From assembly GCA_903813345.2 (NCBI GenBank), contig CAIIXF020000009.1, positions 31,501,259 to 31,565,258 on the forward strand: a stretch of DNA of 64,000 bases, read 5' to 3'. Shown here in pieces: positions 7,447 through 37,476 of the stretch; position 1 is the stretch's first letter, and each line of letters begins with the position of its first letter. The notes below the pieces were generated by a model. That model was not told the origin of the DNA. It saw only the letters and a list, made by a program, of their open reading frames with translations, and ran no database searches. The DNA is from Owenia fusiformis (Eukaryota > Annelida > Polychaeta > Sabellida > Oweniidae). A program made the translations under genes and the position numbers.

Positions 7447-7473
7447 AAATGAGAGTTGAAAGGCAAATGATGG

Positions 7474-8342: not shown

Positions 8343-9665
8343 ATGAAACTTATCACAAGATTAATTCTTATAGCAGTGATTTTCCTCACAATTTTCATGT
8401 TTTGTATTATTACTTTACAGTATCAAATAGAAGACATTAAATATCAGTTACAAGAAACAAAGAGTGAAAAACAAAATACTTATCCAGGTTTAACTGAAAA
8501 TAAAAATAAAGTAGTGGAAAATGGAAATAAGTGGCATGAAGACTCTAAACCTAAAAAAGATAAAGCCTCAAGTGCTTTTCTACCAGTTTATAAAAGCATT
8601 AGGGATATACCTAGATATCAGGAATATGTTTATGAACCTTTCCATGTAAAGCCACCATTGTTTATATCAAAAGATGACCGAGATATATTTTATAAAAATC
8701 CTCAAGCCATGAGCAATATGGAACCAGTTACAAAAGATAAACTTAGAGGAGTTATTGAGATTATTGAAGATGGGAGTTTTAATGTAGAGTTTAAAAATAT
8801 AAAAATGGCATACGAGCCAGAATTTAATTGTGGATGGAATAGCAACAGGTCATTCTTTTACAAAGAACGGGATTTTTCGAAACGTTCTAGAAATGTCCGT
8901 GGACTTTTTCCACTGAATGTTCCAGAGGGATATGCCTTTCAGCTTTTTTTAAATGGAGTTCTTCCAAAAATTATTCAGGCTTTAAATGTTATTAGATGCC
9001 CAGATGTAAGGCTACTTTTAGAGACACCTGTTGATGGTATTATATATGAGATTCTTGATAAATTGAATCTCACAAATCAGGTTGTATTTCATGCTGAAAA
9101 GGATCCAACTCCATATGTTGGAGATCACATGATATTTGGATGTATAGCCCCTCCTCTACACCCTCAGCTCTGGCAAGCAATGAGGCACCATCTGGGTGTC
9201 AGTGATGAACAAAAGTATAACCAAAATCATGCAACTGTGGTGTTAATCACACGTGATCACGCTCGTAACAAGGGACGTGAAATTCAAAACACTGAAGCAG
9301 TTCAGAAATATTTATCAGAAAGATATAAAAACAATTTCAAAATATTCAATGGTGGCATGAACCTGGAAGAATCTCAAAACTTCTTTAGTCACACTAGAAT
9401 TATTTTAGGAGTGCACGGTGGTGCATTTTTCAACCTTTATTTTGCTCCGAAGACAACAACAATAGTTGAGATTGTTCCAATGAATGATGATGGATCTGTT
9501 ATACCCCCTAGTTTGACTAATTCACATACTATTGTTTGGATGATGGCTAATATGATTGGTCAGCCATATTGGAGGATCAGAGCAAATCCTTTGGATAGCA
9601 AAGGAAATCTTGAAGTTGATATTGACAAACTGGATGCAATTCTTAAAACAATTGATAATTCATGA
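8343..9665 (+). CDS. Glycosyltransferase family 61 (DUF563-like) type II membrane protein
   Basis: Single-exon gene of 440 residues. I chose ATG 8343, not the in-frame ATG 8298, because the duplicate copy is conserved from this ATG onward (MKLITRLILIAVIF) and because it places the membrane segment at residues 7-26, as expected for a Golgi/ER type II enzyme. A charged, low-complexity stem follows to about residue 70, then a globular domain. Family marks: YVGDHMIFGC and PPLHPQLW in the middle, VVLITRDHARNKGREI near residue 301, and GVHGGAFFNLYFAPKTTTIV near residues 355-375, which is the typical GT61/EOGT-POMGNT2-like C-terminal nucleotide-sugar site. Donor and acceptor sugars cannot be told from sequence. 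The absence of introns beside intron-rich neighbours may point to an old retrocopy or a lineage-expanded single-exon family. Confidence 0.85.
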   Translation: MKLITRLILIAVIFLTIFMFCIITLQYQIEDIKYQLQETKSEKQNTYPGLTENKNKVVENGNKWHEDSKPKKDKASSAFLPVYKSIRDIPRYQEYVYEPFHVKPPLFISKDDRDIFYKNPQAMSNMEPVTKDKLRGVIEIIEDGSFNVEFKNIKMAYEPEFNCGWNSNRSFFYKERDFSKRSRNVRGLFPLNVPEGYAFQLFLNGVLPKIIQALNVIRCPDVRLLLETPVDGIIYEILDKLNLTNQVVFHAEKDPTPYVGDHMIFGCIAPPLHPQLWQAMRHHLGVSDEQKYNQNHATVVLITRDHARNKGREIQNTEAVQKYLSERYKNNFKIFNGGMNLEESQNFFSHTRIILGVHGGAFFNLYFAPKTTTIVEIVPMNDDGSVIPPSLTNSHTIVWMMANMIGQPYWRIRANPLDSKGNLEVDIDKLDAILKTIDNS

Positions 9666-14681: not shown

Positions 14682-15826
14682 ATGAAGACTACAGTGAGCA
14701 CTGGAGTGATTTTATTATGTTTATATTTAGGTACGATATTTGCTTACTTTTGCTATTTCATATTTATATAAATTCTATATACATGTATTTAAAGTTTTTC
14801 ATCATTATCAGTTGAATTCTAGATAAACTAATAAAAATAATAAATATGTTTAGGGCATTTATGATAGAACTAGGAAAGGAGCACGTAGGTTATCGCAAAC
14901 AATTTAAGAAGGTTATATCTTGGATAATGACTATTTTCTGACAATGAAGACAGGTTTATCTTTTAGATCAATTCATTATCTCAAAGAAAATTATATACAG
15001 TAAAAATAAAATCAAACATACTCGGAGATATTTAACTAGCAATCAACCCATCAACACACTTTTTCAAAGATGTTGACCCCATTTTCACCAAAAATGCAAT
15101 CATGTTTAATGCATTACTATTTTCTATTTTGATGTATCAAATAGTTCTTGAAAGAAAAACTTAATTGCTTTAAGATAAGTGTTCCCCATGTTATTTCTCC
15201 ATTGAAAAATCTCATGCTATCCATTGGTTTCAGTTCATTTTGGTCATCCGAATTCAGTATCTTTAAAGTCCATGGAGCAATCAACTTTTCCTTTTAGGAA
15301 ATCAAACATGTCTCAAAGCACATTCTAATTATGCATTCTACAATATATTAAAAAGTTGCATTTTTGGTGAAAATTAGGTCAACATTTTTGAAAAAGTATG
15401 TTGATTGGTCCATTGCCCCTTCAATATCACTTAGGTCTGATTGACTAAATTATCAATATATAAACTTTTCTTGAAGATAATGAATGGATCTAAAAGATAC
15501 ACCCATGTTCATGATCAGAAAATATTCATAATTCAAGTTAGAATCATTTGAAATTGTTTGCGATAACCTACATGCTCCTTTGAACTTAGTTAATTTTGAA
15601 GTATCAATAGTGTTTAACAAAAACCTGTTCGATGAAACACTTGTTAGTGGAACACCTTCTTAAGTGGAACATTGTTCAAAATCACTGTTACACATTACAT
15701 AATGTGAATAAATCTTGATAATTCCCAGGTACACATATTTTACTGTACTCTGTATCTCATACCAGGTAATCATATCTATTAATGTTTTTCTTCCAGGATG
15801 TGTATCTGCTGTATCTATCGGCAGAG
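14682..15826 (+). other. Signal-peptide exons 1-2 of mesothelin-like gene
   Basis: Exon 1 (49 nt) and exon 2 (30 nt) join to MKTTVSTGVILLCLYLGCVS then AVSIGR. Cleavage is expected after CVSA (residue 21). The second half of the signal is made only after splicing, so single-exon searches would miss it. Confidence 0.8.
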
Positions 15827-18800
15827 GTATGTAACATTTTCATATTATTTTTTAATTTTTAACTTTTTTTTATGTATATTGCTTCTGACAAAAGTTTTCC
15901 TTTGTCAATCTTTACTTTATAATATCTTAAAATCTGGGGAGTAGATAAATTGGTTATATTTGGTTTTAAATACTACTGCATTGTTTTGTGAAGACGAAAC
16001 ACATATACCCTTTAGAATTTTCAATGTATACTTAAAAACATGACTCTGTGGTTTTTAATGTATAAATTGCCAAACTGCATGATTTTGGATTGATACTCAT
16101 CTAGCAATAGCTTTCTAGAGAGAAAATAATAGAAGGCCAAAAATTATCATGTACATGATATATAGCAATATGTATTATTAAGTCTACTGAGCCTCATGAT
16201 ATGAAACTTTCTCAAGTTATTCACAACATATTTGGACACAATTCTGCTAGCTTGAAAAGAAACCCAATACAATACAGCATCATTCCTGAAACATATGGAA
16301 CACCCTGTATTATGATACATTCTTAAAATATATAACAATATTGTTCCTGCATACATTTAAACCCTGGTCAACATTTAGAGGACATCCTCATATAAAGGTT
16401 GCTGATTAAGATGTTTCAGATATTGCTATGGTAGATTGTGATGAAAACTTCATATACAATAATGTTCAATTTCTTTTTCTTAAAGGGGCAACAAAGATTA
16501 CAGAAATGCTATATGAGAGTCACTTCTGAAAATATTGTAACAATTATACAATATTTGTTCACAACATTTCATAGTACTATCATGGCTATTTACCAAAATG
16601 TCAGTCCAGTTGTTCTGGGTTTATTTCATGATCAATCTCTGATGTCTTCTTGCAATACCTTTGAAAAGTTGATCCTTCAGTTTTAATGAATTTGGACATT
16701 ACAGCGCAACTTGAATCTTTATAATGTACTCACTTGGTCAGATTAGAATTGTAAGGAAAATATCAGCATGTGTGATTTTGAAAGTTTTATTATGTCACCA
16801 CCAAAAGTGGTGACATATTGTTGTGGTCCCTGTTTTTTGTGGGGGCTGTTGGTGGTTGGTGTTGGTCCGATTTGCAGTTGGCATCTGTAACAAACTTCCA
16901 ATTACTTAACAAATACTGTTTAGACTGAGTTCAAACTAAAACCATCTACAAGTCAGCCTTGTCAACCCTCACGCATTAGGCGTGATTGTCACGCATTTGC
17001 TGGAAAAATAGAAATCACGCATCAATTTAGCATGTATGATCAAATATCACGCAAAGCATGCATTATGTTGATATTTTTAAAAATTGTTTTTTTATAAAAT
17101 GCCGATACGGTGAAAATCCGAACGGCGAAAAAAAAGCGAATGCATCCCGTTCGGTTTTTGCATGCCATTGCTGTTTATGTCACAAAATATGTGTATATAT
17201 CACGCTTCTTTCAAAAATATTTACACCTCTCAGATGTTCAAATCTTCAACTTCAAATTGACCAAATTCAAAACTGAATTTTAGATGCCTTCAATGAACTT
17301 CTCAAGGCAAAAAGGTCAATAAGGTATTTTTTCAACTCGACCAATTTTTTCAAAATCATCCACAATGTCTCAGAAGTTCAAATCTGACTTAAATATGAAT
17401 TGATAATATAATATTAAAATCCTAACAAATGCCAAAGGATGAGTTGTCCAGGGGATGAGTCGTCTAGGAGATGAGTTATTCGGTTACCCACTATATATGA
17501 TGGAATTATCTCAAATTCAACCTAATAAGTGGAAATCAGTAATTATTTTATTGCATAGATAGACACAAAGAGAGATCTTCAAATTCATCAAAGATAAAAT
17601 GGCATTGAGTGTCTTATTTGAAAGCTATCAAATTTTGGTGTCCAAACTTAATAAGACTGAATTAATGGAGCTAATGAGTTTTCCCCATAGAAAAGAGATT
17701 TGTTGTTCTCCACCTTATAACAGTTCAATGCTGTTTCAATGCCCCTTTCGGTAAAATACTGACAAATTACAAAAAAAAACTTTTGATGAAGTAAAGAGGA
17801 GAAAAGAAATGTCCTCCTTTTAGAAAAAATATAGTAATCTGACATTGTGAAAAATGTCTAAAGATTTATTATTCCAATAGCTTATTACCTCAAAAATATG
17901 TCATTTTAATAAAAAATGTTGTATTTATGGTCAGAATAGTCTAGATTTAATGTAGTCAAATTATTTGCAATACCTGGTCTTTTCCATGTGAGGCAGCCAT
18001 GATACTATATATAAGGGTTATGTACTGTACTGGGAGGTTTTGGATACAGGGTTTATCCAAAGGGAAATATGTGTATATCCCAAGGGACCGGAATACACAC
18101 TGAACTTCATTGTATTATATCATATATCATGCTTTTAAAACAGCAAGGAGACAGCTTCCAGGGAGCGACGGAGGATCATTCTGGGATAAATTAGATGATG
18201 AGCTTACTGATGCAGTTGATGGGGCTCTTGAGCAGCTAGATTGTGGTGGACAACTATGTGATACATTTTTGGACACTTTTGACGATGCACAAAAAGGGCT
18301 CTTCCGTGAATTGGAGGGCTTAGGGGACAGTGAGTAATTCAAACCATGATTATCTTTATGTTCATTTTCCAGACTTTTATGATGAACAGTTCTACTAACT
18401 TATAATCGTAAAGTCCATGTCAAATTGTAATTATTATTTGGAATTCTGATTAATATAAAGTAGAAAAGTACTTTTATGTTTCATCTGGTACATTTTCATG
18501 TTAAAAAATTATCTAAAAAGCTAGGATTATATGCACAGTGTCTTATAAAAATATATTGGTAATCCAATGAAAATAAATTCTTTTAGAATGTAACTTGTAC
18601 ATTTTATCCTTTAAAATAAACATAATATGACTCATAACTTAAAATGTACTATGTTCCTATTGCATTTTATATATTAGCCTATAGTTTTTTATGTGGTCAA
18701 CATTTCTTATCTCATCAACGTCCTTGGTATCAATAATTAGCTTTTGGAAAATAACAGAATTAAAAACATGATCTAAATATTTATTATTACCACCTTGCCA

Positions 18801-21800
18801 GGCCTGTTCTAGGGATATTAGGGCTAGTTTAGAAGGCTTTTATTTTACTATATTGACCTGAGCAATATGTGACGTCATAGTGGAGGCCCAAAATGGATAT
18901 TTCAGCCTGGCAATTTTCCCCAGGAAATTATATATCATTAAGTGTGTATAATTTTCGTTCAGTGGCAGTCCATTTTTGCTATTTCAGCCCTGGACATAAA
19001 CAGTGGTAATAATACTAATAATGTCATTTCTGTGGGTAAAATAGTGAAATATTGGACCGAGGGCCTTTGGCCCTTGGTCTAATATTTCACTATATCGCCC
19101 TTTATCAACATTGTTAATATCAATAGTTAGTCATTGAAAAAGGACAAAATTGAACTCATGATCTAAATATTTATTTTTTGTTATATCAATAATTAGCCAT
19201 TGAAAATTTACAAAATTGAACACATGATCTAAATATTCATTTATTTATTTGATCAACATTGTTAATAAAAAACTTCAAAATTGAACCCATGAACTAAATA
19301 TTTCTTTACAGCCTTCAAATTTGTTGAGGATGATGTGATGCAACTGAGTCCTCAAGAAAGACAGGAAGTACAAGAGTTGAATCAGAAGAAATCACAGTTT
19401 GGGTTTAGTACTTTCAAGGACCAGTCCATGGAGAAAGAACTTCTTGATGATGCCATTCGTCACTTGTCAGAAGAATCGGAAGAAATGAGAGATGCAATCT
19501 TAAACATGACTAAAAAGCCAGAATTATTCACTCCTGAGATTGCAATGGATGTTGATATGGACATGCTCTGCTTTATGAATGTAAGCACTTTTTAGCTTGA
19601 AAACTTCACAATCGTCCAGTCTGATGTAATACATGTACATAAATAAATGAGGTATTTTGTATGAATTCACATGTATCAGGAAATATTGTTTAATGACATT
19701 TGGGATGAGTATTATTCAAAACGACTTATTTCCAAATCATTATCTATAATCGTGATTTATTTCTAAACTCATATTATATGGTTTAATAGATTATTAATTA
19801 AGAATACAGATATGTTTCATTTTTCATTGCACTTTTTTGACTCATATGAGTGTATTGAATCATTCAGTATCTTCATTTATACCTACCTGATGGTAACTTG
19901 TGTATAAAGTATATTATATTTATGAACCATTTTGCACCATGAGAGCCACTGCCACTTAATAGCATCATGATAAACCTTGACATCTTAAATCTTCTCAGCC
20001 CTGCAATGCCATAATATAATGAGCTTGATTTGGCGATCCACGAGAGCCCAAAATTGAGGATTTTTGAGATCTTTTATCCCAGCTCATATTTTATCTAATT
20101 GGGGTCATAAAACTTGTATAACTGTGCCTGTTGTCATCTTCACACGCTCGGTCTTCACTGCGTTCATCGACCGATGGGAGCCGAGTGAATGAAGATGGCC
20201 TGTATGTAATGTATTGACATAAGGTAAATGATTACACGATAACAATCACACTTATTGACAGTTATAACTCTTCCAATCTCATGTGCTCAGAACACAGAAT
20301 GTGCCCCTGTTTCAGGTGAATCAGAAAGAGTATCAGAATGCTTAATAGTGCCATTTGTAATCTATTCTCTTAATAAATGTTTCAGTTGACTGAATTGAAG
20401 GCTGCTGCTAATGTTATGACCAATGAGTCACGTGCAGTCATGTGTGCACGCTCTGCTAAGACGGAAGATATGCAGCCATGTGCTGCTCAGAGGATCGCTG
20501 AGATTGTTGATTGTGGGGAGTACTTTAATAAACTCCAGGTAAATTGACTTATACACCATCAGCTTTGTTTTGACATATAATTGTCAGGCCTCTAGCCTGG
20601 ATTTTACAATGGGTGTACACTTTTTAAAAATTTCCAGGGTGAGTTCACTTTTGACAGCTTTGCCCCAAAAATGGTCAAAATCACTTGAGAAGTGCTCAGA
20701 ATGGTGAAAAACTGCATGATTTTGAAAGAGTTTTTGGCAACGGGGGTTCACTCGAACCCCCTTAGCTGCAGGCCTGCATATAGCTTGTTTACCCATAGCC
20801 AACAATGGGTGTACAGTATTATGTATACAGATGATATATCATCTCAATACACATCAACAATTATCTTGTTGTTAACTACTATGAATTACATCAAAAATGA
20901 GTTGTTATTGGAACTGTTTTCTTGAAAATTAAATTGTAATATGTCACAGTCATAGGCATGGTTCCCAAGCACAATCAATGGAGGAACCATTCCCAAGACA
21001 TGCTGCATAGATCATATTCATTTTGTCGCACAAACATTCATGTAAAAGTTACAATGTATATGACATCGAAATAAACATTTTGTTTAACTTTATTGAATAA
21101 ATTTGACGTGATTCTCTACATTATTTATAATTTCTTTCAAAAGGTGAAACCAAGAGGTGCCGCTGCTGAGGCTTGCCTCTATGGAATCTTGCAACGTGCA
21201 GATTTTGATATCGCTAATTTTACTGATGCTGACTGGGACCAGGCCATGCTTTGCATTGATGGTTTAGAAGCTGAAATGATTATGCAGATACCTCTCCCTA
21301 TCATTAAAAGGAAGTAAGTAAAGTGGCCTTGTAGTTAGATTCCTTGTAGGAATAAACAATAGCACTAGACAGTCAAGTTGCTATAATTCGATAGGGTAAC
21401 ACGTTTAGGTATAAAATCATGTTTCATTTTCATCTGCAGCAATAGATTACCCAAAAATATTGTATAACATGTGAAATCTACTTCATATAATATACTAGAT
21501 GCGAGTAGAAATAATCTTGATTTACTTCATTTAATTTGTAAAATTGAGTTAAAGGGATGTCATATTTGAAGTCAACATGTAAAATTGCATCTAGAAATGT
21601 TGTTTAAAAAAGTATTTACCGACTGTGACTTCTAGGTCGGGGAGATTCCCCATAGACCCCATGTTACAAAATCACAAAAAGTGAAATATCCTTTCTTGTG
21701 TTGGGCAGATACTATGTTCTTTTAATGGACATATTTCCGTTTGTATTATTATCAGACACATAAGGATTGTATTTTTAGTATTTGTAAACTGAGTGGACTC

Positions 21801-24800
21801 CTAAGACCAAGTGAAATGGAGAAGGAAGTGAATTTAGAGGATCTGGACTTCACAGAATTCATGACTAATAAAACAAAAGTCCAAATTACCAAGGCAGCAA
21901 TGAATGAAAAGGCCAAGATGGCTCAGATGGCCAAGGCAAACAAGCCAAACTTTGATAGCGAGGTAAGCTTTTTTTGTTTTTAAATCACCGCCTAAAGAAG
22001 TGACATATTCGTAACAACCACCATATCTTGCAACTGGTACGACTGGTGGATCCAGAAGCTAACAAGGGGGGCCAAATTTTTTTTTCAGGAACAAGTGCGT
22101 AAAAACATTTAGAGTCTCTAAAACCCAAAATTGGGCCCATTTTTTGATAATTTTAACAGGCCTAAAAAGACCAAATTATGTTCAAAAAGGCCAAAAAATT
22201 TTGGGGCCTTAAATTTTTTTCTGGGCCCACAAAAGGGGGGGGGGGGCATGGACCCCCTGGATCTGCCAGTGGATACATAGCAGCATGTCTAGTGTCAAGT
22301 GCAAGCATCTGTAACAAATGGTTACAATTTTGTAATTACAGCCAAGTGGTGACATTTTTTCATGTTAATGCCTTATCTGTTTTAACTTTTATTATCCCAT
22401 CGAACGAAGTTCGGAGGGATATAGGGAACGCCTCCGTCCGTCCGTACGTACGTCCGTCCGTCCGTACGTCCGTCCGTCTGTCCGTCCATCCGTCCGGGCA
22501 ATAACTCATATACCATTGGCCCGATTTTGTTCATATTTTGTACACATATACCTTATGGGGATAGAAGTTCTGCTCGAAAGCCGATTTTCAAAATGGTCGC
22601 TCATTTCAAAATGGCGGCCATTTTAGTGCCGATTTTACAGTAATTTAGGTGCAATATGTAAAACTGTTATAGCAATATGTTTTAAATGTAAAAAAATTAT
22701 AAAGGACATTAATAATGCTACAAATGTAGATATTAAAGAAGCACATGGCAGCCATCTTGAAAAATGGTGGCCTTTACTCGTCATTTTACGATTTTTGCTA
22801 TAACTCAAAAAATAGTGGAGCGATTTTGTTCATATTTGGTATGTGAATACTATAAGCATTGTACACTGTCTTAAGACACTTTTGGTAGAAGGCAGCCATT
22901 TTGAAAAATGGCCGCCATTTTAACATGTTTTACTATAACTCGAAAAGTAGTAGAGCGATTTTGTTCATATTTGGTATGTGAATACTATAAGCATGGCACA
23001 CTGTCCTATGACACTTTTGGTAGAAGGCGGCATTTTGAAAAAAAATTTGAAAAATGACCGCCATTTTAACGTATTTTACTATTATTATCGAAAAGTAGTG
23101 GAGCAATTTTGTTCATATTTGGTATGTGAATACTATAAGCATGGCACACTGTCTATTTCTAATGACACTTTTGGTAGAAGGTGGCCATTTTGAAAAATGG
23201 CCGCCATTTTAACGTATTTCACTTTAACTCAAAAAGTAGTGGAGCGATTTTGTTCATATTTGATATGTGAATACTTTAAGAATGGCACATTTTCTAATAA
23301 AACTTTGGGGAGTAGTCGGCCATTTTGAAAAATGGCCACCATTTTTATGTGTGTTATTTTACAAGTACGTGTGCGATTTTTCAAAAATTCTTCTGATGAC
23401 AACTTGGCTAGTGAGCAACCATTTTGAAAATGGTGGCCTTTCTAATTATGTGTGTTGTTTTATGATATTTGCTATTCGTTTGTAAAAATGCCAGCCATTT
23501 CTGTTCGATGGGAATCGCTACGCTTTGGCGTTGCCGTTGTTCTGGTTTGTTTCCTTTTTTACACATATAACAAAAAACAACATATTTTATTATTGTATAG
23601 TATCATACATTTATATACTTTAACAATCATTAGAGAAATCTAGAATTGATTTGTTTCTTTCTGTAAGATATCACAAATCAAATTTTAATATATTAGAAAC
23701 CATTAATTAAATTATCATTATTCTGTGTAAATGTGTTTTCAGTATTTCAATCGATGTGACAAAGATGACTATGAGTGCTTGGAAGAAAAAGTTGAAGATC
23801 TTGGGGTTTCCCCTGATGTCCTAGGTGCTTTAGTTCAGCGTGTTACCAACATATTACGTCAGGAAAATGTTCAAGCATTCCCTGATGAAATGCTGCGGTG
23901 CTTTGCTCCCTTTTTCATGGAGTTCAAACCAACAGATATCTTAGCCATGCCAGATGCTGCTGTGAGTAAATTTTATATTATTTTCACAATTCGATTTCAT
24001 TTTCAGTTTTTTGTTGAATTATGGCATCCATGCACGTTCCTTTTATAATGAAAACTTAAATGACATGAGTCTGCAGTGTAAAGCGCTATTTTCAAACAGG
24101 TTTTATTCATTTCTAGTTATTCAAGTTCGCGGACTTCTTTGTTGATATTGAGTTTGATGAGTTCACACAAATAGAAGTCGTAGAAAGACTGAAGGCAGCT
24201 TTACCACCAATTGATACTTGGGATAAAGATATGATCATTGAGTAAGTATGACCCCCAAATAATCGACATCATGAGAAAATTAAGATTACACTAGATACTG
24301 CTAAGTGGAACACCTCACAAGTGGAACAGGTTTTTAAAAGTCCTGTGGCCCATTGATTCCATGTTAAAGAACCTCTGTAAGTGGAACACCTCACAAGTGG
24401 AACACTCTTGTGGTCCCAAGGGAGTTCCACTTACACAGGTTCTACAAGATAGCAGAGACAAATTATAATAGTTAGTTAGTTAGTTATGACATGGTAGATT
24501 TGTTGTTTTTCAGCAGTTCAGCTAATATTCCTTATTTTGTTAAAAGTTACTGAAAAACCGAAGTTAAAAAAGTCACAATCTAATGTTAATTGTAAAATAT
24601 TTCAGCCTGTTTAAAAATGTCAAGCTAGATGTTGGAATTATGGAAGGTCTAAATGCCAGTGGTGGACTGTTAGAAGCAATCAAGGATACAAACTTCCCCG
24701 AGTTTGAAGATGAGGCTGATGTAAGTAGATTTGAAATGCATACTTTGTATGATTTGCAGGCATTTTAGTCTTTCTCTTTTCTCACCAACAGAGGAAGGGT

Positions 24801-27800
24801 TATAGACACATGATTAATATGGTTCATACAGTTTGTGTATTTTATGTTTTTATGACCACAATTAAGGGTTATAGACACATGATTAATATGGTTCATACAG
24901 TTTGTGTATTTTATGTTTTTATGACCACAATTAAGGGTTATAGACAGTCACATGTTTAATATGGTTCATACAGTTTGTGTATTTTATGTTTCATCTGAAT
25001 GCCATTGAACTATATATTGAGAAGGCTATCGGAAAAAAACATGATCCAACCTTAGCTGTATTACAGCCTGAAAGAGATAAAGTTGTACATTGTTGGAAAG
25101 AATTCAAGAACATTATTCAGCCTGTGAAAAACATACAGATAAATATGTAATTTTGAAGCTGTCAAACTTTTATGGTCTCTCTGATATTTCAGTACATTCT
25201 GCTTCTTACAGACCTCAATCGAAGCAAATTTGTGTACATGAATCTAATGATTTCTAATTTTTTAGGGATTCCTCCTTGGAAAAATCGTAAGAGGCGTTGA
25301 ACAATTCATAAACGCTGAGAATATGACAGCTGATGATATTGTTGACATTAAGAAGGTTCTTCCAATTATGGGCATATCCATCTTCGAGAAGTTAAATGAT
25401 ACCGCATTGTTTGATGTCTTTGAAAACATTAGTGATGTGACTGGATGGCCAGATGACTTGGTGAGTTTTCTAAGGTTATTCTACAGAGTGTCAAAAAACA
25501 ACAGCACCCCCTCTACAGCAAAATGTACATATTGTGACATGGTGTGTCATATCCCATTTTAAAGACAATTAGATTCTGGATTCATCTGTAGCTATCTAGT
25601 ATCTATTAGGTGTATATTATAGAAATCAGAACAATTAAGCTAATTTAAAATTGACATTTCTGACGTTTGGATTCTTTACTTTAGAATACTCTTGGGTCTA
25701 TGTGTTGTTGACTTGAGTGCATGCATGCATGAAGAATGTCCTTAGTTTAAGTGTAATGTTAAAAATCACCATAGCAAAACATCCTCATCCATATTATGAG
25801 ACTATCAAAGAGCATAACTATTGTAAAAATAACTACAAAGGTAATATGTATATCTACAATAACAACCATAACATGCATATAACAATCAAATACATCTTAT
25901 AATATACCATAACCAACACAATGTATACCCTAGATGTACTTGAAATTCAAATTCCCATTAAAAAAACATCCAAAATAGCACTCATAAATTCCATCAACTC
26001 TAGAAAGGATTTGTAGTAAATAAATGGAAATATTAAAGAACACTATGTGCAGTTGTATTACTCTATGCATAAAAGCCTATAATATGTTTGGATGAAATAA
26101 ATTGTCCCTTGTATTCATTAACCACCAGTATATCACCTTTAATTCATGGATTATCACGTGCGTGATGGTCTTGTATGGTTTCTATCAAGAAAGTCAATGT
26201 AAGCAGCAATAGCATGTTTACACATAAATATAATCACACTACTATACCTAACACCTAGAAATGCATAAGATACTTTGTTTGTCTAATTGAATTGTTTAAT
26301 ATATTTTTGAAAGTGCCTTACTGGCATCTAATTTTCAACCGATAAACCATTCATAAGGAACAGACAAATAAAAACAAATACATAATTATTACTAATAAGC
26401 CAAATGGGTTGCTCATGAACACCAAATGCAAGGTATAGTAGTGTGATAATGTATGTTAATTGTTTATAGGGACGTGATATGGCCAAATTTGCTATTAAGA
26501 AAATGGGTGGAGCAAATAACTTGGACAGTGGTAAATTTGGAAAACTCGGGAGCCTTGGTGGTTACATGAACACTGATGAAATTGATATGCTGAGTGATGA
26601 CGTAATCTCAGATAATCTCGACTCCCTAAATAATCTGAGATTAAGTAAAGCTGGTCAGAAAAAACTTCTGAAAAAGGTCAGTGGAATTATAAATACATCT
26701 GAGTTACATACATCTGAGTTATTTTATAATTGATCAATATTTCGTTGTAAATGTTGAGAATTTGAATTTGAAAACAATTTTTGCGCACAGTTGATGGTCA
26801 TAACAAAGTTGTTTTAATTATTTCTAGACATTTTCATTCAAGATGCTGGATTGAAAGCCCATGTAGGCCAATATGACAATTTTCTATTTCCTATATATCT
26901 TGTTACAATTTCAACATGTCTTGAATGAGTGTCTACTCCTTTAAGGTCTTTTGTAGTTATATGTACAATAAAATAGGATGCAAATAAATACTGAGATAAA
27001 GAATAAGTTAATTTCCTTTACTTGGTGTATATTCCAAATAAGTTCAAAATATTTCTTTAGATGGAATCTGCAGGAGGTAACCTCTTAGAGAATGCTGTAC
27101 AAAATGGTACAGTGGGCAAACTGATGAAGAAATTGCCACTGAAGAAGTTGAAGGAATTGGGAGGAAGTGCGCTTGGGTTTCAACCAGAAAGCAGACCAAT
27201 GGACATTGAATGTGACAAGTCAACTGTAAGTATTGGTATAAACTAAATATTACTCTTTTATGTATAAAACCTTTTTAATCCCATTTAAAAGCAAAATGCT
27301 CATTTCTAATTCAGCGAGATAGACTTTACAATTCATTTTACATTATGAATTTACCAATTAATTTATAAGCTGTACATGTTTGCTTAAGCTTAGTTCATAT
27401 TCAAGTGCTCTACCTGGTCAAATGACCCAAATGTTGTCCAATCAGCCAGCATGATGTCATTAATTTGAAAATTTTGTTGATGATTTATGATTGATATTAT
27501 AGAGAAAGACAAAGCTACTAAGATCATATCAAAGAGGTAACCTAAATATGATACATATTTGAGGATTTAACTCAAAATAGGATGATAAAGAAATATTTCC
27601 TGTGATGTATTGATGGTTTTATTAACTCTGATTGTAGTGCAAGGAAATGTTTAAAATGACAAAAGCCAATGGACTTGGAGAAATATCCCAAAATGCAAGA
27701 AAGTACAATATGAAGACTATCAAGAATATGGGAAAAGTTGCCTGCGGTATGGGATGTCCAGAAATCATTGGTCTTCCAAAGAAAAGAGAAACTTTCAAGA

Positions 27801-30800
27801 TTGTCAAGCACATGGGAGAACTTAGATGTCTAGGAGAGGTGGAGGTGAGTGCTTCTCAGATGAAAATGTATAATTGACCAATCACATCAGATCATCTTAG
27901 AGTGGAACGCATAATTGACCAATCAGATTAGATCATCTCAGATGGAAATGTTTTTAATTGACCAATCAGATTAGATCATCTCAGATGGATATGTATAATT
28001 GCCCAATCAGATTAGATCATATTAGAGTGAATTGTATAATTGACCAATCAGATAAGATCATCTCTGATGGAAATGTATAATTGACCAATCAGATTAGATC
28101 ATATAAAAGTGAATTGTATAATTAACCAATCGGATTAGGTCATCTCAGAGTGAAATGTATAATTGACCAATCAGATTAGATCATGTCAGAGGGAAATATA
28201 TAATTGACCAATCGGATGAGATCAACTCAGATGGTATTGTATAATTGACCAATCGGATTAGATCATCTCAGATTGAAATGTATAATTGACCAATCGGATT
28301 AGATCAACTCAGATGGAATTGTATAATTGACCAATCAGATTAGATCAATTCCTGACATTGTCTAATTTAAAAAATTTGCAAAATGAGTGTAAATGTTTGG
28401 CTGGAACAGTCAAATATTCAGATCAGTTTCACCAGAGATCACTATTCTACCATGGCAACATGCATAGCATACCATGATTCTATGAGGAGAACTGTAAAGG
28501 TATTCTTGATATGACACTCTGGGTTGGGCTCCATCCATAGTGTGATGAACGCACCCCCCCCCCTCCCCCATAACTCCCATAAAAGAGCTTTGAAATGCTT
28601 TTATTTCAAATTTCTAGCTCAATTTTGAAGGAAGTTACATAAATATTAGTAAAATTCAAAATAAATCTTTAAAAAAAATTTTGACTTGCTAAATGCCCTG
28701 TTCACACCCCCTGACCAAAAACTGAATTTTGTTTTGACTATCACCCCCCCCCCCCCCCCTGGCTGAAAGCTGGTTACACCCATGCCCCATCTATTACTGA
28801 TGTTCCTATTATACATTCCTGTGGATTGTTTACCCTATACTATGTATTATGTTGTAGCAAAAGTGCATGGCTTACAAGATCAAATCTATGATGGAGTTTA
28901 ACAACCAGACGAAACTTAATCAATTTGCAACCAGAGAGAACATCAAGAGTGTTTCTCAATTCTTCAAATTTTTCAAGTGAGTAAGAAATTAGTACACAAA
29001 TTCTTGATTATACAGTCTTTTTCAAATTGCTGTTGTATTATTGGTGTTGTATTACCCAGTCATTTCTCAGAATTTAAGCATCCACTTTGGATCTGTTTCG
29101 CTAGAAAAACAAATAGTTTATAATATTCTTCTTCTTTGTCACTAGTGCTTCCGACTTGCGTAAGCTACCACAACAACGTTGCTACGATATCCTATCAGGA
29201 ATGGGCCGTGAGGATTTCAGTAAAGTACGACGCTCTCAATTGACCGAGTTGAAGAACTTTGCTCTTAGCTGCAAGGTAAGCAATACATTTTTCCAAAACA
29301 AATACAACACATAAAATATATTAATCATCCAAATATTTTGTTTGTCTAAGTGAACAGAAAATTTAATTTGTAATGTTCGTAAATGTTGAAATATGATTAA
29401 CAAATCAAATTGCTTCAACCATTTATAAAATATAATAATTTTGTATTCAGAGACATGTTTTTGTTTTTTTTATTCAACAGTAATATTACATACATTTAAT
29501 ACAACATTCTAACAGCTTGATATCCTTTTGGATATATAAAGCATTTAATTACAATAGTTTGTTCTTAAATAATGGCTTGTTCACTATACTACTTCTTGCT
29601 GAATCTTATAAAAAACTAAATTTGAATAAGGAAAGAAAGTGGAAAAATGAGAAATGCAGGTATTATATTACATTCAGCATTTTCTACATTATACTATCTT
29701 AATTTTACTCTATATTTATGATATAACATACATAACATACATGTTAATGATATGAATAAGTCTCTGATACAGTATATTAACTTAAGTGCTAAATAATGTA
29801 CTTATAGTCTTGCTCAAAGACTGTATCCACCCTGCCCCCCCCCCCCCCATCACCTTCACTCTCTTTACCTGGCAATATACAGAGAGAGGGATAAGGGGGG
29901 AGTACAGGGTCTTTTAAGCAAGACTAATGTACTTATAAAATACTAAATATCATTTTGTACAATAAAACAACATTTCAGAACAAGGAAGATGGAAATAGTT
30001 CAATCACAACAGATGATATGATGCTTATTGGAGACATTGCATGTGGAATGGAAGAAAAGGATGTTGCAAGGTTCAGTGTGGAGGCCATTACAGACATGCT
30101 CTTCAAATGGCAGGCTAGATGTGTCATTCAGCCACATATTGTCCGTGCTCTACTCAACAAAGTCAAAATGACCTTGAATATGTAAGTTTTGAAAAACATA
30201 TAAAAAGCATTGTATTAATTCACAGTAGGCATTTTAAATTGGTGCATGATTCTCATTTTTACCAAATTTTTCAGTCAGATAGCCTTATTTTTTTCTAATA
30301 GTGAGTGTTAATGGGTTTTCAGGTGGGTTCAATCCTATTTTAAAATTTCAGATGCGTAAAGCACCCATTTGCTTTAATACAAGGGAAATCCATGAAGATT
30401 TTTTAAATACTTAGTGCGTTTCAGGGAAATAATGGTAGAATTATGGATTTTTTCTCAAACTTGGAAGTTAATATCATTTAACCAGGTGCTGAACCCTTTT
30501 GCAAATATGAGAATTGCATACCACCCTGCTGAAAATGTGTTTGCATCCTGTTGAAATTGTGAAAAATTTGACTAAAACATGAAAAATTAGGATGATCGAA
30601 TAAAAAAAATTTGAGAAATTACAAAATTTTTCAATCTATTTCATGTTAAACCAACTTTCATCGTGTTTATAAGGGAAATATGAGACAAATCGGTTTTATA
30701 TGGATTGGATAATGATTATAGGTATAGGAATATGTAATCTTCTGCAGTGCCTGATGTATTAAGATTATCTCCCTCTGTTAAAAATATAGTTTTTTACAAA

Positions 30801-33800
30801 TCTAGATATATTTCGCAAGTATATTGGTGTGTCTTCACGAATAAAAATATATGCTCAGATCAAAACTTTTTATTTTATTTGCATGAGCTCCACATTTGAA
30901 ATTACATGTTTGTTTCAGTTCTGCTGGGGATCTAACACAGAAAGAAATGGTACAATTGGGTGCTTTCATGACATATTTGGAGCCTAGTGATTTTGCTCAG
31001 TTGAACAGGGTAGGTACTCATAAAAATGAAAATAGCGCATATACTATTTGATTGTTTCATCATGCATTGTATGCAATCTAAAATAAAAGCAGTGAAATTC
31101 AATTCACTTGAATTTCTGAGAAATAATCAATGCTAAATAATAGTGTAACCAAATAATATATTATATGCAGAGCAACAAAAATATACAAAAAGGCAGGGTA
31201 TATTATGAAAATTGATCTCTAAATTCCAGACTGAAGTGAGAAAAGCTATCCCTCGTTTAATGAAACAATTCCAAGCATTTGAGGGAATGCGCAAGCTTCG
31301 TGAGCATAACTATGTCATGGACTTGAACAGCACTGAGACTGCTGATCTACTGGCAGGAAGAGACGCTATTTATGGTGCCATCTTGGATGGTATTACATCA
31401 GATGGTCAATCAAGAAAGAAGAGATCTGGAAGTAAGCCCATTTGTATTTTAGTTATCTCGTAGGAATACTATACATATGTTTACCTGGTACTGGTTTGTT
31501 AATTAATATGGAACTACAACTGCTGTATTTATGATAGTTTATGTAGTGTTGTGCTAGTTATACAAAGCTTTTGTTAATGTTAACTTTTCCATGCCAACTT
31601 TTCTCATGTATTGTCAGCCTTGTGCTATATTGACTATATTATCAATTCATGCTTTTGAATATATTATCTATATGTATCTATCATGTAACTTGTGCTGTAT
31701 CTATCAGGGAACTTGTGCTGTATTTCTCATGTAATTTGTGCTGTATCAGTCAAACTTGTGCTGTATCTAGCATGTAACTTGTGCCGTATCTAGCATGTAA
31801 CTTGTGCTGTATCTATCAGGGAATTTGTGCTGTATTTCTCATGTAACTTGTGCTGTATCTATCACGAAACTTGTACTTTATCAATCATCAAACTTGTGCT
31901 GTATCTATCATGTTTCTTGTGCTGTATTTCTCATGTAACTTGTGCTGTATAAATCACAGAATTTGTGCTGGATCTATCATGTTTCTTGTGCTGTATTTCT
32001 CATGTAACTTGTGCTGTATAAATCACAGAACTTGTGCTGTATCTATCATGTAATTTGTGCTGTATCTATCATGTAACTTGTGCTATATCTCTCATGGAAG
32101 TTGACATATGATATATTTTGTGATATATATGTCATTAAACTTGTACTAAATCTTTTGTGGATCTCATGCTATAAACAACTTGCAGGCTCCCTTACATGCA
32201 GTGAGATTAAGATGTTGGATGACGCAGCTGCTCAGATGACCACAACTCAGCTCTCTAACCTCGCAGACAGTGACTTTGTTGACTGTGCAGCAACAATGGG
32301 TTCAAATGAAGGATGGAGTCAGGAACAGAAGGTTGCCCTTAGTGAAGTGGCTGGACGTGAAACTGTAAGCATCTGAAAATAAATTCTTTCTAAAAATCAG
32401 AGACTTTGTGTATGTATAAGCATCTTTAATTAACATTTTTAGTAAAAAATACATTTTGTTTCTGAAACACAATGCACTATTCGCCATTATACAGTGTCTG
32501 CATTGGGGTTAAGTATTGCACATTTGAGGACAGATTGTAGTCCCAGAGTAGTTATGGTTGAAATAATGTCTCACTTCATTGAATGCATCAATTGGCGGTC
32601 AAGAAAATGCTTTTTCATTCCACTGCCTGTGAATTTTGTAATGAATTTTCCCCATTTTTCTGAAACTTATATACAAGACACAATATTTATTATAATTGGC
32701 TAAATCTGTTGCACTATTCATATATATCATAACTTAGGTATGGGGTAGCCATTCTACATGGGACAATGATGATATCGCAAAGGCTGGCATCATGACCCAG
32801 GGTCTTAGTGCAGCCAACATTGCCATGCTTAATATCACCTCAGTTGACACACTGGCTTCACTTGGTCAGTATAGTGGATGGGAGGCAACACAGGTGAGTC
32901 AGCAATACAATACTATACAATGCAATACAGTGTAATGCAATGCAATACAATACAATACAAATGGAATGCAATGTAATTAAATCAATAGTATTATATTATA
33001 TATTATACTTGTATGCTCTTCATACACTACTGATATAATTTAAAGTGGCAGACAAGTTTATAGACTGTAAATTGTTGGAAACAATCGTTTTTAATAAACA
33101 TGCCATCATGCGCCTTTAACAATCCTTGATTTAATATTACTGGATATATACTGGATAAAATATGGGATTAATTGAAGGATTAAGATGCAGAAATGGTCAG
33201 TTCTTTAAAATACTGAAAATTGTGGCACTTACAAGAGATGAGTGGAAAATGTGTCTCATTATCAATTTTCCAAGAGAATATATCCAACTTTATTGATGGG
33301 AGCCATGTATTGGACATAATAAGAGATTTATTTAAAAACAAAGTAAATTAATTAATATTTGTTTTGTTTGTAGTTGGAAGCTGGATTCACAGCATTTTTG
33401 ACAAACACCAAAGGTGGATCTATTGGAAGTGTCGACTCTACAGATCTTGGTTCCATGGGAGAGTTTGGCTGTGGTGCCACCGTCAGTGAGATTGGTAGTA
33501 TGAGCACTGCATACGCGTAAGTCATCATATTACATCCTAAAGATCATGTTTTGAAATTAATAAATAATTATACAAAAGAGGGGAGTAAGGAGACAACTTG
33601 CAACTGTGAAATTGAAGTTCAATAAAGTATTTTATTCCATTAACAAAAACCTCATCTTTATACTGTTGCGGCGTGTTGCCTCACTTATTTTTTTGATATT
33701 ACTTTACAGTGAAGCTTCTAGTGATGTAGGTTCCCTGACTAGCTGTAGCTCTGAACAACAAGCTGCCTATGCTACACTAGCTGTCAGTGCATTCGGCTCT

Positions 33801-36800
33801 AACGTCACTGCATGGTCTGAATCCGATGTGGCATCAGTTGGTAACATGGTCGGTGGACTCAGTGAGTCAGACCTTACTAAACTCACAGAGACACAGATTC
33901 AAGCCATGAGTCCTGCGAGTGTTTCTAGCATCCCTGCGGCTAAGTTCAGTGTAAGTATCCCCAATCATTCTGATACTCATAGCATCTTTCTGTTTCACCT
34001 GAAACATGCTCTGATATTATGAGGCATATTCTGTGATCTGAGCACATCAGATGGGAAGAGTTATAACTGTCAAAAAGTGTGATAGTTATCATGTAATCAT
34101 TTACCTAATGTCAATACATTACATAATAGGCATTGTATTTAACAGCAGATATTAGCACAGGTACGTGTACACAGGTTTAATGACCCCAATTAAATGAAAT
34201 ATGAGCTGGGATGAAAGATCTCAAAAATCCTCAATTTTGGGCTCTCCTGGATCGCCAAATCAAGCTCATTATATCATGGCATCTCAGGGCTGAGAAGAAA
34301 TGAGATGTCATGGTATATCATGATGATCCCCAATAGGGTGGACTGACTTTTCAAATAAGCAATCGTTTTCATTGTACCTAAACAGGTAGAATATTGTCAC
34401 AAAGTTTGACAAACTTTTTTATGTCAGTATGTTTTAAAGGTGCAATAATTAGTGCAGAGGGGTCATTCAACGATCATGGACCAGTGTCAAAATATATTTA
34501 AGTTTGGATATTTCATCAAGACTAACATCTATTTTTATTATCTACAAAGATACCCCCTAGATAAACATTATTTTAGCTGATATTCCTCTTGAAACATAGT
34601 GGATCTTAAAAATATAAAAGTGGAAGTCCCCTTTTTCAAGCTTTGAACTGAATTTACACTTCTTAATGCTGAAATTGATAATTTATTCATACATTTTAAG
34701 AAAATAGGTATGTCAAAGAAGATGTTAAACCAAATGTTGCCTTGATAGCTCAGAAAAAATGAAAAAACTTTCCTATTTTCTCTACAGTCCTTATTGCCCC
34801 TTTAAGGCAAACCAGTTGACGGGTTGATATGAAGTTAGAGATCGTTTCTTGGTATACAAATTCAGAACTGATTAGTTTTTGGGTATGCTACATAAATTCT
34901 GAGATGTCTACTTTGGGTTTTAGGTACAAATTATTCACACTGTGTAGTGTGTGTTATACCGAGACAATTTGCTTTGTACATTTGACACTTGAGTGCTTTG
35001 CTTTGAATGATCATATTCAAGTTTAATTCATACGAAATTTTTTTTGTTTTACTTTTTTATCACACCATCGGTGGGATATAGTCGTCATACTGGTCGTGAT
35101 CGTGATCGTGGTCGTGATCGTGGTCGTGGTCGTGATCGTGATCGTCCCGCTTTTTGTCATCGCCGTTTAAGGAAAACTGCTCATCAGATTTTCTCCAAAT
35201 TCGCAGAGATGATAGAGCATATGAAGTACTAGAGCTGATTAACTTTTGGGTGGCCATCTTGTTTTCTGGCGGCCATTTTGAAGGTTTTTCGAAAAATCTT
35301 GTCATCGCCATTTCAGAAAAACCGCTCATTGGATTTCCTTCAAATTTACACAAATGATAGAGAATATCAAGTACTAGAGCTGATTAACTTTTGGGCGGCC
35401 ATCTTGTTTTCTGGCAGCCATTTTGAAGATTTTTCGAAAAATCTTGTCATCGCCATTTCAGAAAATCCGCTCATCGGATTTCCTTCAAATTTACACACAT
35501 GATAGAGGATATCAAGTACTAGAGCTGATTAACTTTTGGGCGGCCATCTTGTTTTCTGGTGGCCATTTTGAAGGTTTTTCGAAAAATCTTGTCATTGCCA
35601 TTTCAGGAAAACCGCTCATCGGATTTCCTTCAAAGGACAATTCTCGGTTTGGAGAACGAAGTTCATCAATCTAAATGAGCATTATTCCTGCTTCGGACAA
35701 ATTTGATTTTTTTTACATAATATAGATTTGAATGTCTTCTTTTGAATAGTCATAATTTAATTTGGGTAATATTTCTAGATTTTTCGCAAAAAAATATTAG
35801 CTCAGTACACTGATGGACTTCTTTCCCCGAATCGAGACTTGTATTTATATTGATTCGGTCTATTTGAGCATTATCCCTGCTTCAGACCAATTTGTTATCT
35901 TTACATCTTGTAGATTTAAATGTCCTCTTTTGAATATTCATAGTTTAATTTGGGTAATATTTCTATATTTTTCATGAAAAACATTATTAGCCCAGGAGAC
36001 TGTTCTCCAAACCGAGAGTCGTCCTTTACACAAATGATAGAGGATATCAAGTACTAGAGCTGATTAACTTTTGGGTGGCCATCTTGTTTTCTGGTGGCCA
36101 TTTTGAAGTTTTTTTGAAAAATCTTGTCATCGCCGTTTCAGGAAAACCGCTCATCGGATTTCCTTCAAATTTACACACATGATAGAGGATATCAAGTACT
36201 AGAGCTGATTAACTTTGTGGCAGCCATCTTGTTTTCTGGTGGCCATTTCAAGTTTTTACGAAAAAATCTTGTCATCGCCAATTTAGGAAAACCGCTCAAC
36301 GGATTTCCTTCAAATTCGCACAGATGATAGAGGATATCAAGTACTAGAACTGATTAACTTTTGGGCGGCCATCTTGTTTTCTTGTGGCCATTTTTAAGGT
36401 TTTTCGTAAAATCTTGTCATCGCCATTTCAGGAAAACTGCTCATCGGATTTCCTGTACATGATAGGGGATATCAAGTTCTAGAACTTATTAAATTTTGGG
36501 TGGCCATTTTGTTTTCTGGCGGCCATTTTGAAGGTTTTTCGATAAATCTTCGCATCGAAAACAATCCACTTTGTCATATTGCCTTAAATTTTAGCTCAAG
36601 ATGTGAGCACTTGATTAATATGACCACAGCCAACATTTTTTTCTTGTTCTTGAAATTTGTAAACATAATAGGAGAACAGTTTTCCTGGTTCATAGTGTCT
36701 GCCTATTTGATGGTGTGATCTCGTTCACGTCCTGTGCCTTGTTCTGAGTAGATGTTGATATGTGATAAATTAGTTCACAACATCGTAATAGTTGAGCAAT

Positions 36801-37476
36801 GCTTTATTTTGCTTTTATTCTGAATTCTAGGCCTTGTCAGCCACCCAGGTTGGAGCCATGTCTTCTTCCCAGGCTGCCTCCATCAGTGCCGACCAGCAGG
36901 CCAACATGAACAGTGATGCCTTGAGTGCACTTGGTAACAGTGGAGGTAACATTGTTGTACAGGACAATGGACTGACAACTGGTGCCCCAGGTGGAGGTGC
37001 TGGTCCTGGTGGAAATGGTAAGTTGATAACAATTTTGATCCAAATATACTTACTTACCTGATTAGCTTTGAAATGAACATTAAATATTTGACTCTGCTAA
37101 ACAGTGCATTGGACTCATTCTAAGCACTGGTTTAAGTAAATGAAATTTGAATGAATTGGAAACCACCCTAGCCCAGCACATATAGGAAAACATGGCAACT
37201 TGTCCATGGATCAGTTCTCAAGATTAGGTATAAACATCCTCATGATAAACTGATGAACTGTTTGAAAGCGACAGTTTGTTTCAAAGCATTATTGGCTATA
37301 TTTGACATTAGAAAGTGGAAAAATTCATATTAAAAAGTGAATGTTTTTTTTAATTTATTTCACAAATGCTCTACCTGGTAACTGTAATTTGACTATTTTC
37401 TATTTCAGGAGCTGGTCCTGTGAGCATCTCTCTTGCTGCCATCATTACCCTTCTGATTGCTGCATTCATTATGTAA
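14682..37476 (+). CDS. Mesothelin/stereocilin-like GPI-anchored surface protein, 25 exons
   Basis: Exons: 14682-14730, 15797-15826, 18144-18329, 19312-19580, 20386-20538, 21144-21313, 21779-21962, 23743-23961, 24117-24241, 24606-24720, 25266-25460, 26470-26676, 27061-27225, 27638-27844, 28858-28976, 29146-29275, 29979-30181, 30919-31009, 31230-31431, 32186-32364, 32738-32893, 33374-33516, 33710-33950, 36831-37017, 37409-37476. They sum to 3993 nt (1330 residues plus TAA) and every junction keeps phase. Residues 1-21 are a signal peptide (ATG 14682 chosen for this), followed by RARR (26-29). Residues 30-1000 are helical, leucine-rich and without known catalytic motifs. RKKR at 1001-1004 is a furin-type site. 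The remaining 326 residues are rich in Ser/Ala with repeats such as LSATQVGAMSSSQAASISAD, then a Gly/Pro linker and a 22-residue hydrophobic tail ending in AAFIM with no cytoplasmic part. This order matches the mesothelin precursor; stereocilin and otoancorin are relatives. Family assignment rests on architecture and repeat style, not on a search. Confidence 0.8.
14873..15584. mobile_element. Fold-back element in intron 1 of mesothelin-like gene
   Basis: AAAGGAGCACGTAGGTTATC with GCAAACAATTT at the left is repeated in reverse complement at the right (AAATTGTTTGCGATAACCTA, then CATGCTCCTTT). Similarity continues inward for over 200 bp on each arm, for example TTTCACCAAAAATGCAA against TTGCATTTTTGGTGAAA. 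No coding frame. Confidence 0.8.
16790..16905. repeat. GTCACCACC element copy, truncated
   Basis: Begins TTATGTCACCACCAAAAGTG and keeps the 'ggtccctgtttttt' and 'catctgtaacaaa' segments of the family but loses the GCATGTTAATGCC end. Confidence 0.6.
16958..17060. repeat. Cluster of four CACGCA(T/A) motifs
   Basis: CACGCATT, CACGCATT, CACGCATC and CACGCAAA recur every 20-40 bp in an intron. It may be a relic of a repeat; no gene could be made of it on either strand. Confidence 0.3.
17439..17489 (-). repeat. Solo end related to the 16-bp-unit terminal repeat element
   Basis: Three 16-bp units starting GATGAGT(T/C)GTC, then TTCGGTTACCC. Reverse complemented, the unit CCCTGGACAACTCATC resembles CCCAAGACAACTCGTA of the element at 51528-52511, and the outer GGGTAAC also agrees. 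I did not find a partner end nearby. Confidence 0.55.
19041..19093. repeat. Perfect-type hairpin, GTGAAATATT family
   Basis: ATAGTGAAATATT at the left and AATATTTCACTAT at the right flank a GAGGGCCTTTGGCCCTTGG core, forming a nearly continuous palindrome. The same GTGAAATATTTG arms and a GCCCTTCGGGC core occur at 60457-60593. Confidence 0.7.
19960..20300. repeat. Dispersed repeat, inverted relative to 34025-34330
   Basis: The segment containing CTTGATTTGGCGATCCACG, the 'aaaattgaggatttttgaga' string and CACACGCTCGGTCTTCACTG is found in reverse complement at 34040-34310, in another intron of the same gene. Confidence 0.65.
20585..20776. mobile_element. CAGGCC...GGCCTG element, copy 1
   Basis: Short inverted ends CAGGCCTCTAGCC / AGCTGCAGGCCTG. 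The interior shares AGTGCTCAGAATGGTGAAAA and 'aactgcatgattttgaaaga' strings with copies at 41905-42120 and 56439-56590 on the other strand. Confidence 0.65.
21985..22373. repeat. GTCACC-family copy split by a nested element
   Basis: The outer parts (ATCACCGCCTAAAGAAGTGA ... 'catctgtaacaaatgg' ... GTGGTGACATTTTTTCATG, TTAATGCC) belong to the GTCACCACC family. Positions 22041-22272 are a separate insertion with ends CGACTGGTGGATCCAG / CTGGATCTGCCAGTGG and poly-G runs. Confidence 0.6.
22395..23513. mobile_element. Element with TCCCATCGAAC ends, simple repeat and internal minisatellite
   Basis: Left end TCCCATCGAACGAAGTTCGG, right end GTTCGATGGGA. After the left end comes a CGTCCGTC(CGTA) simple repeat, then a tandem array of roughly 130-150 bp units containing GCGATTTTGTTCATATTTGG and GGCCATTTTGAAAAATGG. 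The open frame at 22178-22504 is just this repeat read as Arg/Pro/Ser. It lies in the intron between exons 7 and 8 of the mesothelin-like gene. Confidence 0.65.
24297..24455. repeat. AAGTGGAACACC element, copy 2
   Basis: Contains CTAAGTGGAACACCTCACAA twice in direct order and ends GAGTTCCACTTACACAGGTT. It is inside an intron. Confidence 0.65.
24796..24990. repeat. 69-bp tandem repeat, about 2.8 copies
   Basis: Unit begins GGGTTATAGACACATGATTA and includes 'cagtttgtgtattttatg' in each copy; the third copy has a 4-base insert (cagt) and a changed tail. Intronic. Confidence 0.85.
25461..26469. other. Long intron with no further feature seen
   Basis: Intron of the mesothelin-like gene. AT-rich; only short frames with no recognisable domain. 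Confidence 0.5.
27860..28350. repeat. ~41-bp minisatellite downstream of exon 14
   Basis: About a dozen units of the type ATGTATAATTGACCAATCAG plus ATTAGATCATCTCAGATGGA. The first unit overlaps the splice-donor region of exon 14 (27845 onward), so the array seems to have grown from intron sequence directly beside the exon. Confidence 0.85.
29806..29935. mobile_element. AGTCTTGC...GCAAGACT element, copy 1
   Basis: Inverted ends AGTCTTGCTCAAAGAC / GTCTTTTAAGCAAGACT around a poly-C tract. A second copy is at 38877-38991. Confidence 0.65.
31001..31440 (+). other. Exon 19 with furin-type cleavage site
   Basis: Exon 31230-31431 encodes residues 940-1006 and ends in GQSRKKRSG. The basic tetrad RKKR is followed by small residues (SGS after splicing), as favoured by furin. 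It sits at the boundary between the long helical part and the Ser/Ala-rich C-terminal part. Confidence 0.7.
31640..32110. repeat. ~23-bp tandem repeat array
   Basis: About twenty degenerate units of CTTGTGCTGTATCTATCATG, sometimes with CTCATGTAA variants, in the intron between exons 19 and 20. Confidence 0.85.
32900..32975. repeat. (CAATA/CAATG)n simple repeat
   Basis: Runs of AATACAATAC and AATGCAATGC just after the donor of exon 21. Confidence 0.75.
34025..34330. repeat. Dispersed repeat, inverted copy of 19960-20300
   Basis: See the entry at 19960. Two inverted copies sit about 14 kb apart within the same transcription unit. Confidence 0.65.
34436..34805. mobile_element. AAAGGTGCAATAATT element, copy 1
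   Basis: Ends AAAGGTGCAATAATT / TTATTGCCCCTTTAA are imperfect inverted repeats. The interior (TGTCAAAATATATTTAAGTT, 'tcatcaagactaacat') is repeated in the same orientation at 50207-50574. Confidence 0.7.
35059..36719. mobile_element. Element with ATCACACCATC ends and ~145-bp tandem array
   Basis: Left end ATCACACCATC, right end GATGGTGTGAT. A (GTGATC/GTGGTC)n stretch at 35085-35150 follows the left end, then about eight units of a 145-bp repeat with GATTTCCTTCAAATTTACAC, AGCTGATTAACTTTTGGG and GGCGGCCATTTTGAAG. The array is broken at 35637-36019 by another element. All frames here are repeat translations. It fills most of the intron between exons 23 and 24. Confidence 0.7.
35637..36019. mobile_element. 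TCTCGGTTTGGAGAAC element nested in the tandem array
   Basis: Begins GGACAATTCTCGGTTTGGAG and ends in the reverse complement (GTTCTCCAAACCGAGAGTCG then TCC). It interrupts one array unit exactly between CTTCAAA and TTTACAC. Internally it has two related halves. Another copy in reverse orientation is at 48990-49362. Confidence 0.75.
37409..37476 (+). other. Exon 25: GPI-anchor signal of mesothelin-like protein
   Basis: Encodes the hydrophobic tail (residues 1309-1330, GPVSISLAAIITLLIAAFIM) directly after a Gly-rich linker with small residues (GGNGAG), then stop. No basic cytoplasmic residues follow, which favours GPI attachment over a transmembrane anchor. Confidence 0.7.

Follow-up and report, generated by a model that had tools for sequence, protein, structure and literature searches.

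The window analyzed here is a stretch of 64,000 nucleotides from the annelid Owenia fusiformis (contig CAIIXF020000009.1, positions 31,501,259 to 31,565,258 of the forward strand), and at 14682-37476 on its + strand lies a gene for a predicted secreted protein of the mesothelin/stereocilin/otoancorin superfamily. A first-pass annotation had joined 25 exons in phase into a product of 1330 residues, and the splice model that we re-derived from the raw sequence agrees with it. The exons, of which the first is at 14682-14730 and the last at 37409-37476, form one open frame of 1330 residues plus a stop, and all of the introns are GT-AG. The two other frames of the joined exons contain 82 and 139 stops, and at the gene's own base composition chance alone would leave a 1330-codon frame open at a log10 P of ∼−38.5, a significance that is overstated because the choice of exons kept the frame. 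When the protein was searched against the whole genome (498 Mb in 525 contigs) 25 matches were listed, and 23 of these lie inside the window, exon by exon.

The precursor opens with a signal peptide, MKTTVSTGVILLCLYLGCVSA, that is read from sequence and, as annotated earlier, is split over two small exons of 49 and 30 nucleotides (14682-14730 and 15797-15826), though these exons are modeled with the least certainty, since none of the 23 window matches covers residues 1–24. The same two exons hold the start of RARR, a second dibasic site (residues 26–29), which directly follows the signal peptide and continues into exon 3. Exons 3–19 (18144-31424, + strand) encode an N-terminal part of about 1000 residues that runs up to RKKR at residues 1001–1004; this motif was found where it had been reported, at 31413-31424 on the + strand, at the end of exon 19, and a phase-1 intron follows 7 bases later. 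The C-terminal part (residues 1005–1330; 31425-37476, + strand) is encoded by the end of exon 19 and exons 20–25. It is a mesothelin-like module with cysteines at residues 1011, 1040, 1151 and 1178, and both its length of 326 residues and its hydrophobic end without cytoplasmic residues hold up by sequence and hydropathy. That end, SISLAAIITLLIAAFIM, resembles a glycosylphosphatidylinositol (GPI) signal and is encoded by exon 25 (37409-37476, + strand), which is 68 nucleotides long and is preceded by a Gly/Pro-rich linker. LS..Q-type repeats, which had been reported for the C-terminal part, do exist but are limited to a short run near residues 1224–1270 (exons 23 and 24; 33710-37017, + strand), and they are no evidence of kinship, since they also match 9zem, a designed repeat protein of the PDB. 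The precursor contains 18 N-glycosylation sequons, which, like RARR, the first-pass annotation does not mention.

Comparison with curated profiles places the protein in the superfamily. PF21058 (Stereocilin) matches the whole protein at E = 4.6e-14 with 52.8 bits (curated cut-off, 26.6), over five stretches of which the best is at residues 849–946. In a piecewise scan the main source of this signal is residues 688–999 (1.6e-9, three stretches); residues 356–687 give a weak match below the cut-off (4.3e-4), and neither residues 22–347 nor the C-terminal part alone is matched by PF21058. The piece from residue 688 to the end of the C-terminal part gives a slightly stronger match (1.6e-11, four stretches). 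Searches of the whole genome for the PF06060 (Mesothelin) and PF21058 families found nothing, a silence that means little because even the window gene escaped them. No Rfam family matches in the window. Marker searches of the genome fit an annelid: erythrocruorin-linker domains (PF16915), which are known from annelids, are matched above the family's cut-off at three places, at a fourth when taken with its neighbors and below the cut-off at two more, all near 27.03-27.05 Mb on contig C6. One of 14 control genomes, that of an archaeon, also gave a match to PF16915, below the cut-off. The genome has a single C1-set immunoglobulin match, far fewer than a vertebrate should show and thus weak evidence against one, and a search for mitochondrial COX1 found none.

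The C-terminal part of the protein has relatives elsewhere on the same chromosome (C9), where a genome search with it returned weak exon matches, including a colinear set of three at a single location. Splicing of C-terminal parts by an alignment script with donor and acceptor scoring gave relative A near 25.369-25.371 Mb (+ strand), relative C near 3.414-3.418 Mb (− strand) and relative D near 15.229-15.237 Mb (+ strand). Relative B, near 3.334-3.336 Mb (− strand), is a near-copy of C ∼80 kb away from it and has an in-frame TAG in one exon. It was left out of the counts because of this stop and because its model has no credible cut-site exon; B may be a decaying duplicate. All counts given below for four members thus refer to the window gene, A, C and D. 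They concern the C-terminal parts, as the models of the N-terminal parts of A, C and D are unreliable, with low scores and repeat artefacts, and enter no count.

Identity to the C-terminal part of the window gene is 30% for that of A, 29% for that of C and 24% for that of D, and the four-member alignment has 22 invariant columns, among them all four of the window cysteines (4/4). In the reverse direction, A finds the window exons at E = 1.1e-9 and C at 3.9e-7, and D reaches them only at 2.2. PF21058 gives weak matches, under its cut-off, to the C-terminal parts of C (5.2e-4) and D (7.5e-4) and none to that of A. An array of a repeated peptide, LIDHVIQDKLARLYGR, is seen at about 2800-5100 of L013 (G000:C9 15.223-15.233 Mb), upstream of D's cut-site exon.

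All four genes have a basic site before the C-terminal part: RKKR in the window gene, RRKR in A and in C, and RRRRR in D. A phase-1 intron follows the basic site at 7, 1, 4 and 1 bases downstream, respectively, and the first cysteine is in every case residue 7 after the last arginine, albeit the donor that gives this layout in A and C is not of strong consensus. The mature chain of human mesothelin begins at E296, and its first disulfide cysteine, C302, is likewise residue 7 (PMC10035497). We interpret RKKR as a predicted furin-type cleavage site at the position characteristic of the family.

Similarity to mesothelin itself emerges when the four sequences are taken together. A profile built from the four C-terminal parts aligns with the mature chain of human mesothelin in hhalign over 165 colinear columns (E = 1e-5, score 44.5, probability 82%), with an identity of 18–19% in the aligned module. 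Scores fall to 15.0 for the reversed sequence, to at most 24.4 over 200 global shuffles of mesothelin and to at most 23.4 over 200 shuffles of eight-residue blocks, so that none of the 400 shuffles reaches 44.5. The score stays above the shuffles when columns are taken from the first sequence (37.5, E = 1.2e-4) and when the repeat tail is removed (36.4). Slices of the N-terminal part served as further controls, and the five that end before the C-terminal part score at most 30.5; two of the seven cut, 770–1073 and 920–1223, overlap the C-terminal part and were left out. Numbered from the start of the mature chain, the cysteines lie at 7/36/147/174 in the window protein and at 7/31/147/173 in human mesothelin, where the disulfides are C302–C326 and C442–C468 (PMC10035497). 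The first, third and fourth cysteines are aligned by both MAFFT runs as well as by the end-to-end hhalign alignment.

The C-terminal module also has a counterpart within the precursor. Residues 691–1004, up to and including the cut site, align with it over 135 columns at a score of 36.6, which none of 100 block shuffles attains (best 32.1), whereas residues 23–360 and 341–700 are unremarkable (equaled or exceeded by 17 and 10 of 100 shuffles, respectively). The precursor would thus be built of related modules, and the last module of its N-terminal product appears to be akin to the one predicted to be anchored.

Anchor-like ends are found in three of the four genes (the window gene, A and D), where the stop codon comes directly after a hydrophobic stretch, and residues small enough to suit GPI attachment stand immediately ahead of that stretch. 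The window tail, ISLAAIITLLIAAFI, has a mean hydropathy of 2.83 and is followed by one residue and the stop; the best 15-residue means in A and D are 2.71 and 2.47, with 4 and 2 residues remaining before the stop. These values are of hydropathy only and do not come from a trained GPI predictor.

Taken together, these features make it likely that the product of the gene is a secreted annelid member of the mesothelin/stereocilin/otoancorin superfamily, a precursor that would be cut, anchored and adhesive. In such a scheme the signal peptide would send the precursor into the secretory pathway, and a furin-like convertase would cut it after RKKR in the Golgi. The N-terminal product of ∼970 residues would then be released or would remain associated, while the C-terminal module of ∼300 residues would be held on the outer cell surface by a GPI anchor. 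By analogy with otoancorin, stereocilin and mesothelin, the protein most likely forms a helical solenoid and serves in adhesion, linking the surface of an epithelium to a mucin-like glycoprotein or an extracellular gel.

Several observations weigh against so close a parallel with mesothelin. PF06060, the profile that the first-pass annotation proposed as a check, matches neither the whole protein nor its pieces nor the C-terminal parts of A, C and D, while the human mesothelin precursor, run as a positive control, matches at 1204 bits. Compared singly with human mesothelin, the four C-terminal parts are not significant, with scores of 16.7–23.7 that fall inside the shuffle range. An end-to-end alignment of the module with human mesothelin has a probability of 41%, and the second cysteine coincides in this alignment only, as neither MAFFT run aligns it. 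Run against the PDB as a profile, the four-sequence alignment placed repeat proteins on top, with none named mesothelin among the 46 sequences listed, and the N-terminal part has no detectable similarity to the MPF part of the human protein. Relative C shows no anchor-like tail in the ∼1.6 kb examined. A PDB search with the whole protein returned mostly repeat proteins and no mesothelin. The mesothelin-like architecture claimed by the first-pass annotation is partly supported: superfamily membership, the four-cysteine layout and the distance from cut site to first cysteine favor it, a PF06060 match was not obtained, and the two cleavage products and the GPI attachment are predicted from motifs. 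The similarity to mesothelin and stereocilin on which that claim depended was found, in the PF21058 match and in the profile alignment of the C-terminal part to human mesothelin. On this evidence the protein is a member of the superfamily and the gene a new member of a known family; it may be orthologous to mesothelin or to the stereocilin/otoancorin side.

With the human mesothelin precursor (MSLN; PF06060) the worm protein shares a C-terminal module that is colinear by profile, similarly placed cysteines and a predicted mature chain whose start makes the first cysteine residue 7. Human mesothelin is GPI anchored (PMC10035497), and the tail of the worm protein is GPI-like by hydropathy. It differs from mesothelin in its lack of a PF06060 match and in an N-terminal part that is three to four times longer. 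With stereocilin (PF21058) it shares the profile match over the curated cut-off, mainly in the N-terminal part, and, by analogy, its presumed surface attachment. The lengths given in PMC2628672 are 1153 residues for otoancorin, 1775 for stereocilin and 622 for mesothelin, so that the worm protein, at 1330, is in a similar length class to otoancorin and differs in this respect from stereocilin. That paper also mentions a suggested role of stereocilin and otoancorin in the attachment of cells to the tectorial membrane, and the binding of MUC16 by mesothelin.

An alternative is that the basic site goes uncut and that the gene encodes a stereocilin/otoancorin-like surface protein, one long anchored solenoid. 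Stereocilin is indeed the only curated profile that passes its cut-off, mainly in the N-terminal part, and the length of the worm protein is nearer to those of otoancorin and stereocilin than to that of mesothelin (PMC2628672). All four genes nonetheless keep the basic site, and its distance to the first cysteine is identical in each, even though the other three C-terminal parts are just 24–30% identical to that of the window gene; such constancy would be unexpected for a site that is not used, and we consider this alternative unlikely. The hydrophobic end might similarly be an ordinary membrane span without GPI transfer, or the 3′ exon model might be wrong, given that exon 25 is short, comes after a Gly/Pro-rich linker and belongs to a model that rests on sequence. 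That A and D also end hydrophobically, with only 4 and 2 residues after the best 15, makes either of these improbable.

A further explanation is that the mesothelin likeness of the C-terminal part reflects convergence of helical repeats, of ARM/HEAT-like composition, and not common descent. It would account for the match of the short tail repeats to designed helical repeats and for the failure of single sequences to score significantly with mesothelin, but it sits poorly with a profile score above that of all 400 mesothelin shuffles and of the five N-terminal slices, the piece 691–1004 reaching 36.6. The alignment is moreover colinear over its 165 columns and exceeds the shuffles without the repeat tail, the cysteines and the cut-site register coincide with those of the human protein, and PF21058 matches the N-terminal part independently. 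We regard convergence as very unlikely, and favor a cut and anchored precursor related by descent to mesothelin, stereocilin and otoancorin.

Stereocilin and otoancorin are linked to deafness, and mesothelin is a major tumor target. The shared register suggests that the cleave-and-anchor arrangement is ancestral in bilaterians and that the two-part design is very old. We lean slightly towards a more specific history, in which the cleavage register (the basic site, the phase-1 intron of the worm genes and cysteine 7) and the four-cysteine module had already become fixed in the ancestor of bilaterians when mesothelin, stereocilin and otoancorin split. Annelids would then have kept a small family on one chromosome, and the proteins linked to the inner ear and to cancer would be late specializations of an old epithelial surface adhesive. 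Non-vertebrate relatives are already known at the level of annotation, as an 'otoancorin' of the crown-of-thorns starfish, listed among known exoproteins, is described as secreted and upregulated in testes (PMC9759900). Among the papers listed by our searches, none deals, by its title or the opening of its abstract, with how invertebrate members are cleaved or built, although such work may have been published. What is new here is a cut-site and cysteine register common to a small family of annelid genes. A protostome family with a mesothelin-like register and cysteine plan offers comparative material from animals without ears or mesothelium, and the original purpose of the design becomes testable by expression and knock-down.

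Other features were noted in the window. Upstream of the gene, two tandem open frames at 6990-9665 are alike over their first ∼100 residues, and the longer (8274-9665) belongs to glycosyltransferase family 61 (PF04577, 4.8e-14), with no match in the PDB. Downstream, the end of an Exo70-type exocyst gene lies on the − strand at 40164-40547 (PF03081, 3.8e-20; PDB 2pft), and further exons of it are probably upstream on that strand. A multi-exon gene at 47481-49602 (+ strand), in which the single exon scanned has no Pfam match, resembles one for a DEDD-type exonuclease. By eye, an intronic element at 22390-23530 combines a CCGTCCGT-type stretch with repeated 'ATGGCCGCCATTTT'-like units and is of a kind known from other marine invertebrates. 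Repeat arrays of imperfect units, tandem or dispersed, were also seen by eye in the introns of the gene and downstream of it, at 28050-28350, 31690-32080, 35060-36560 and 40640-41010.

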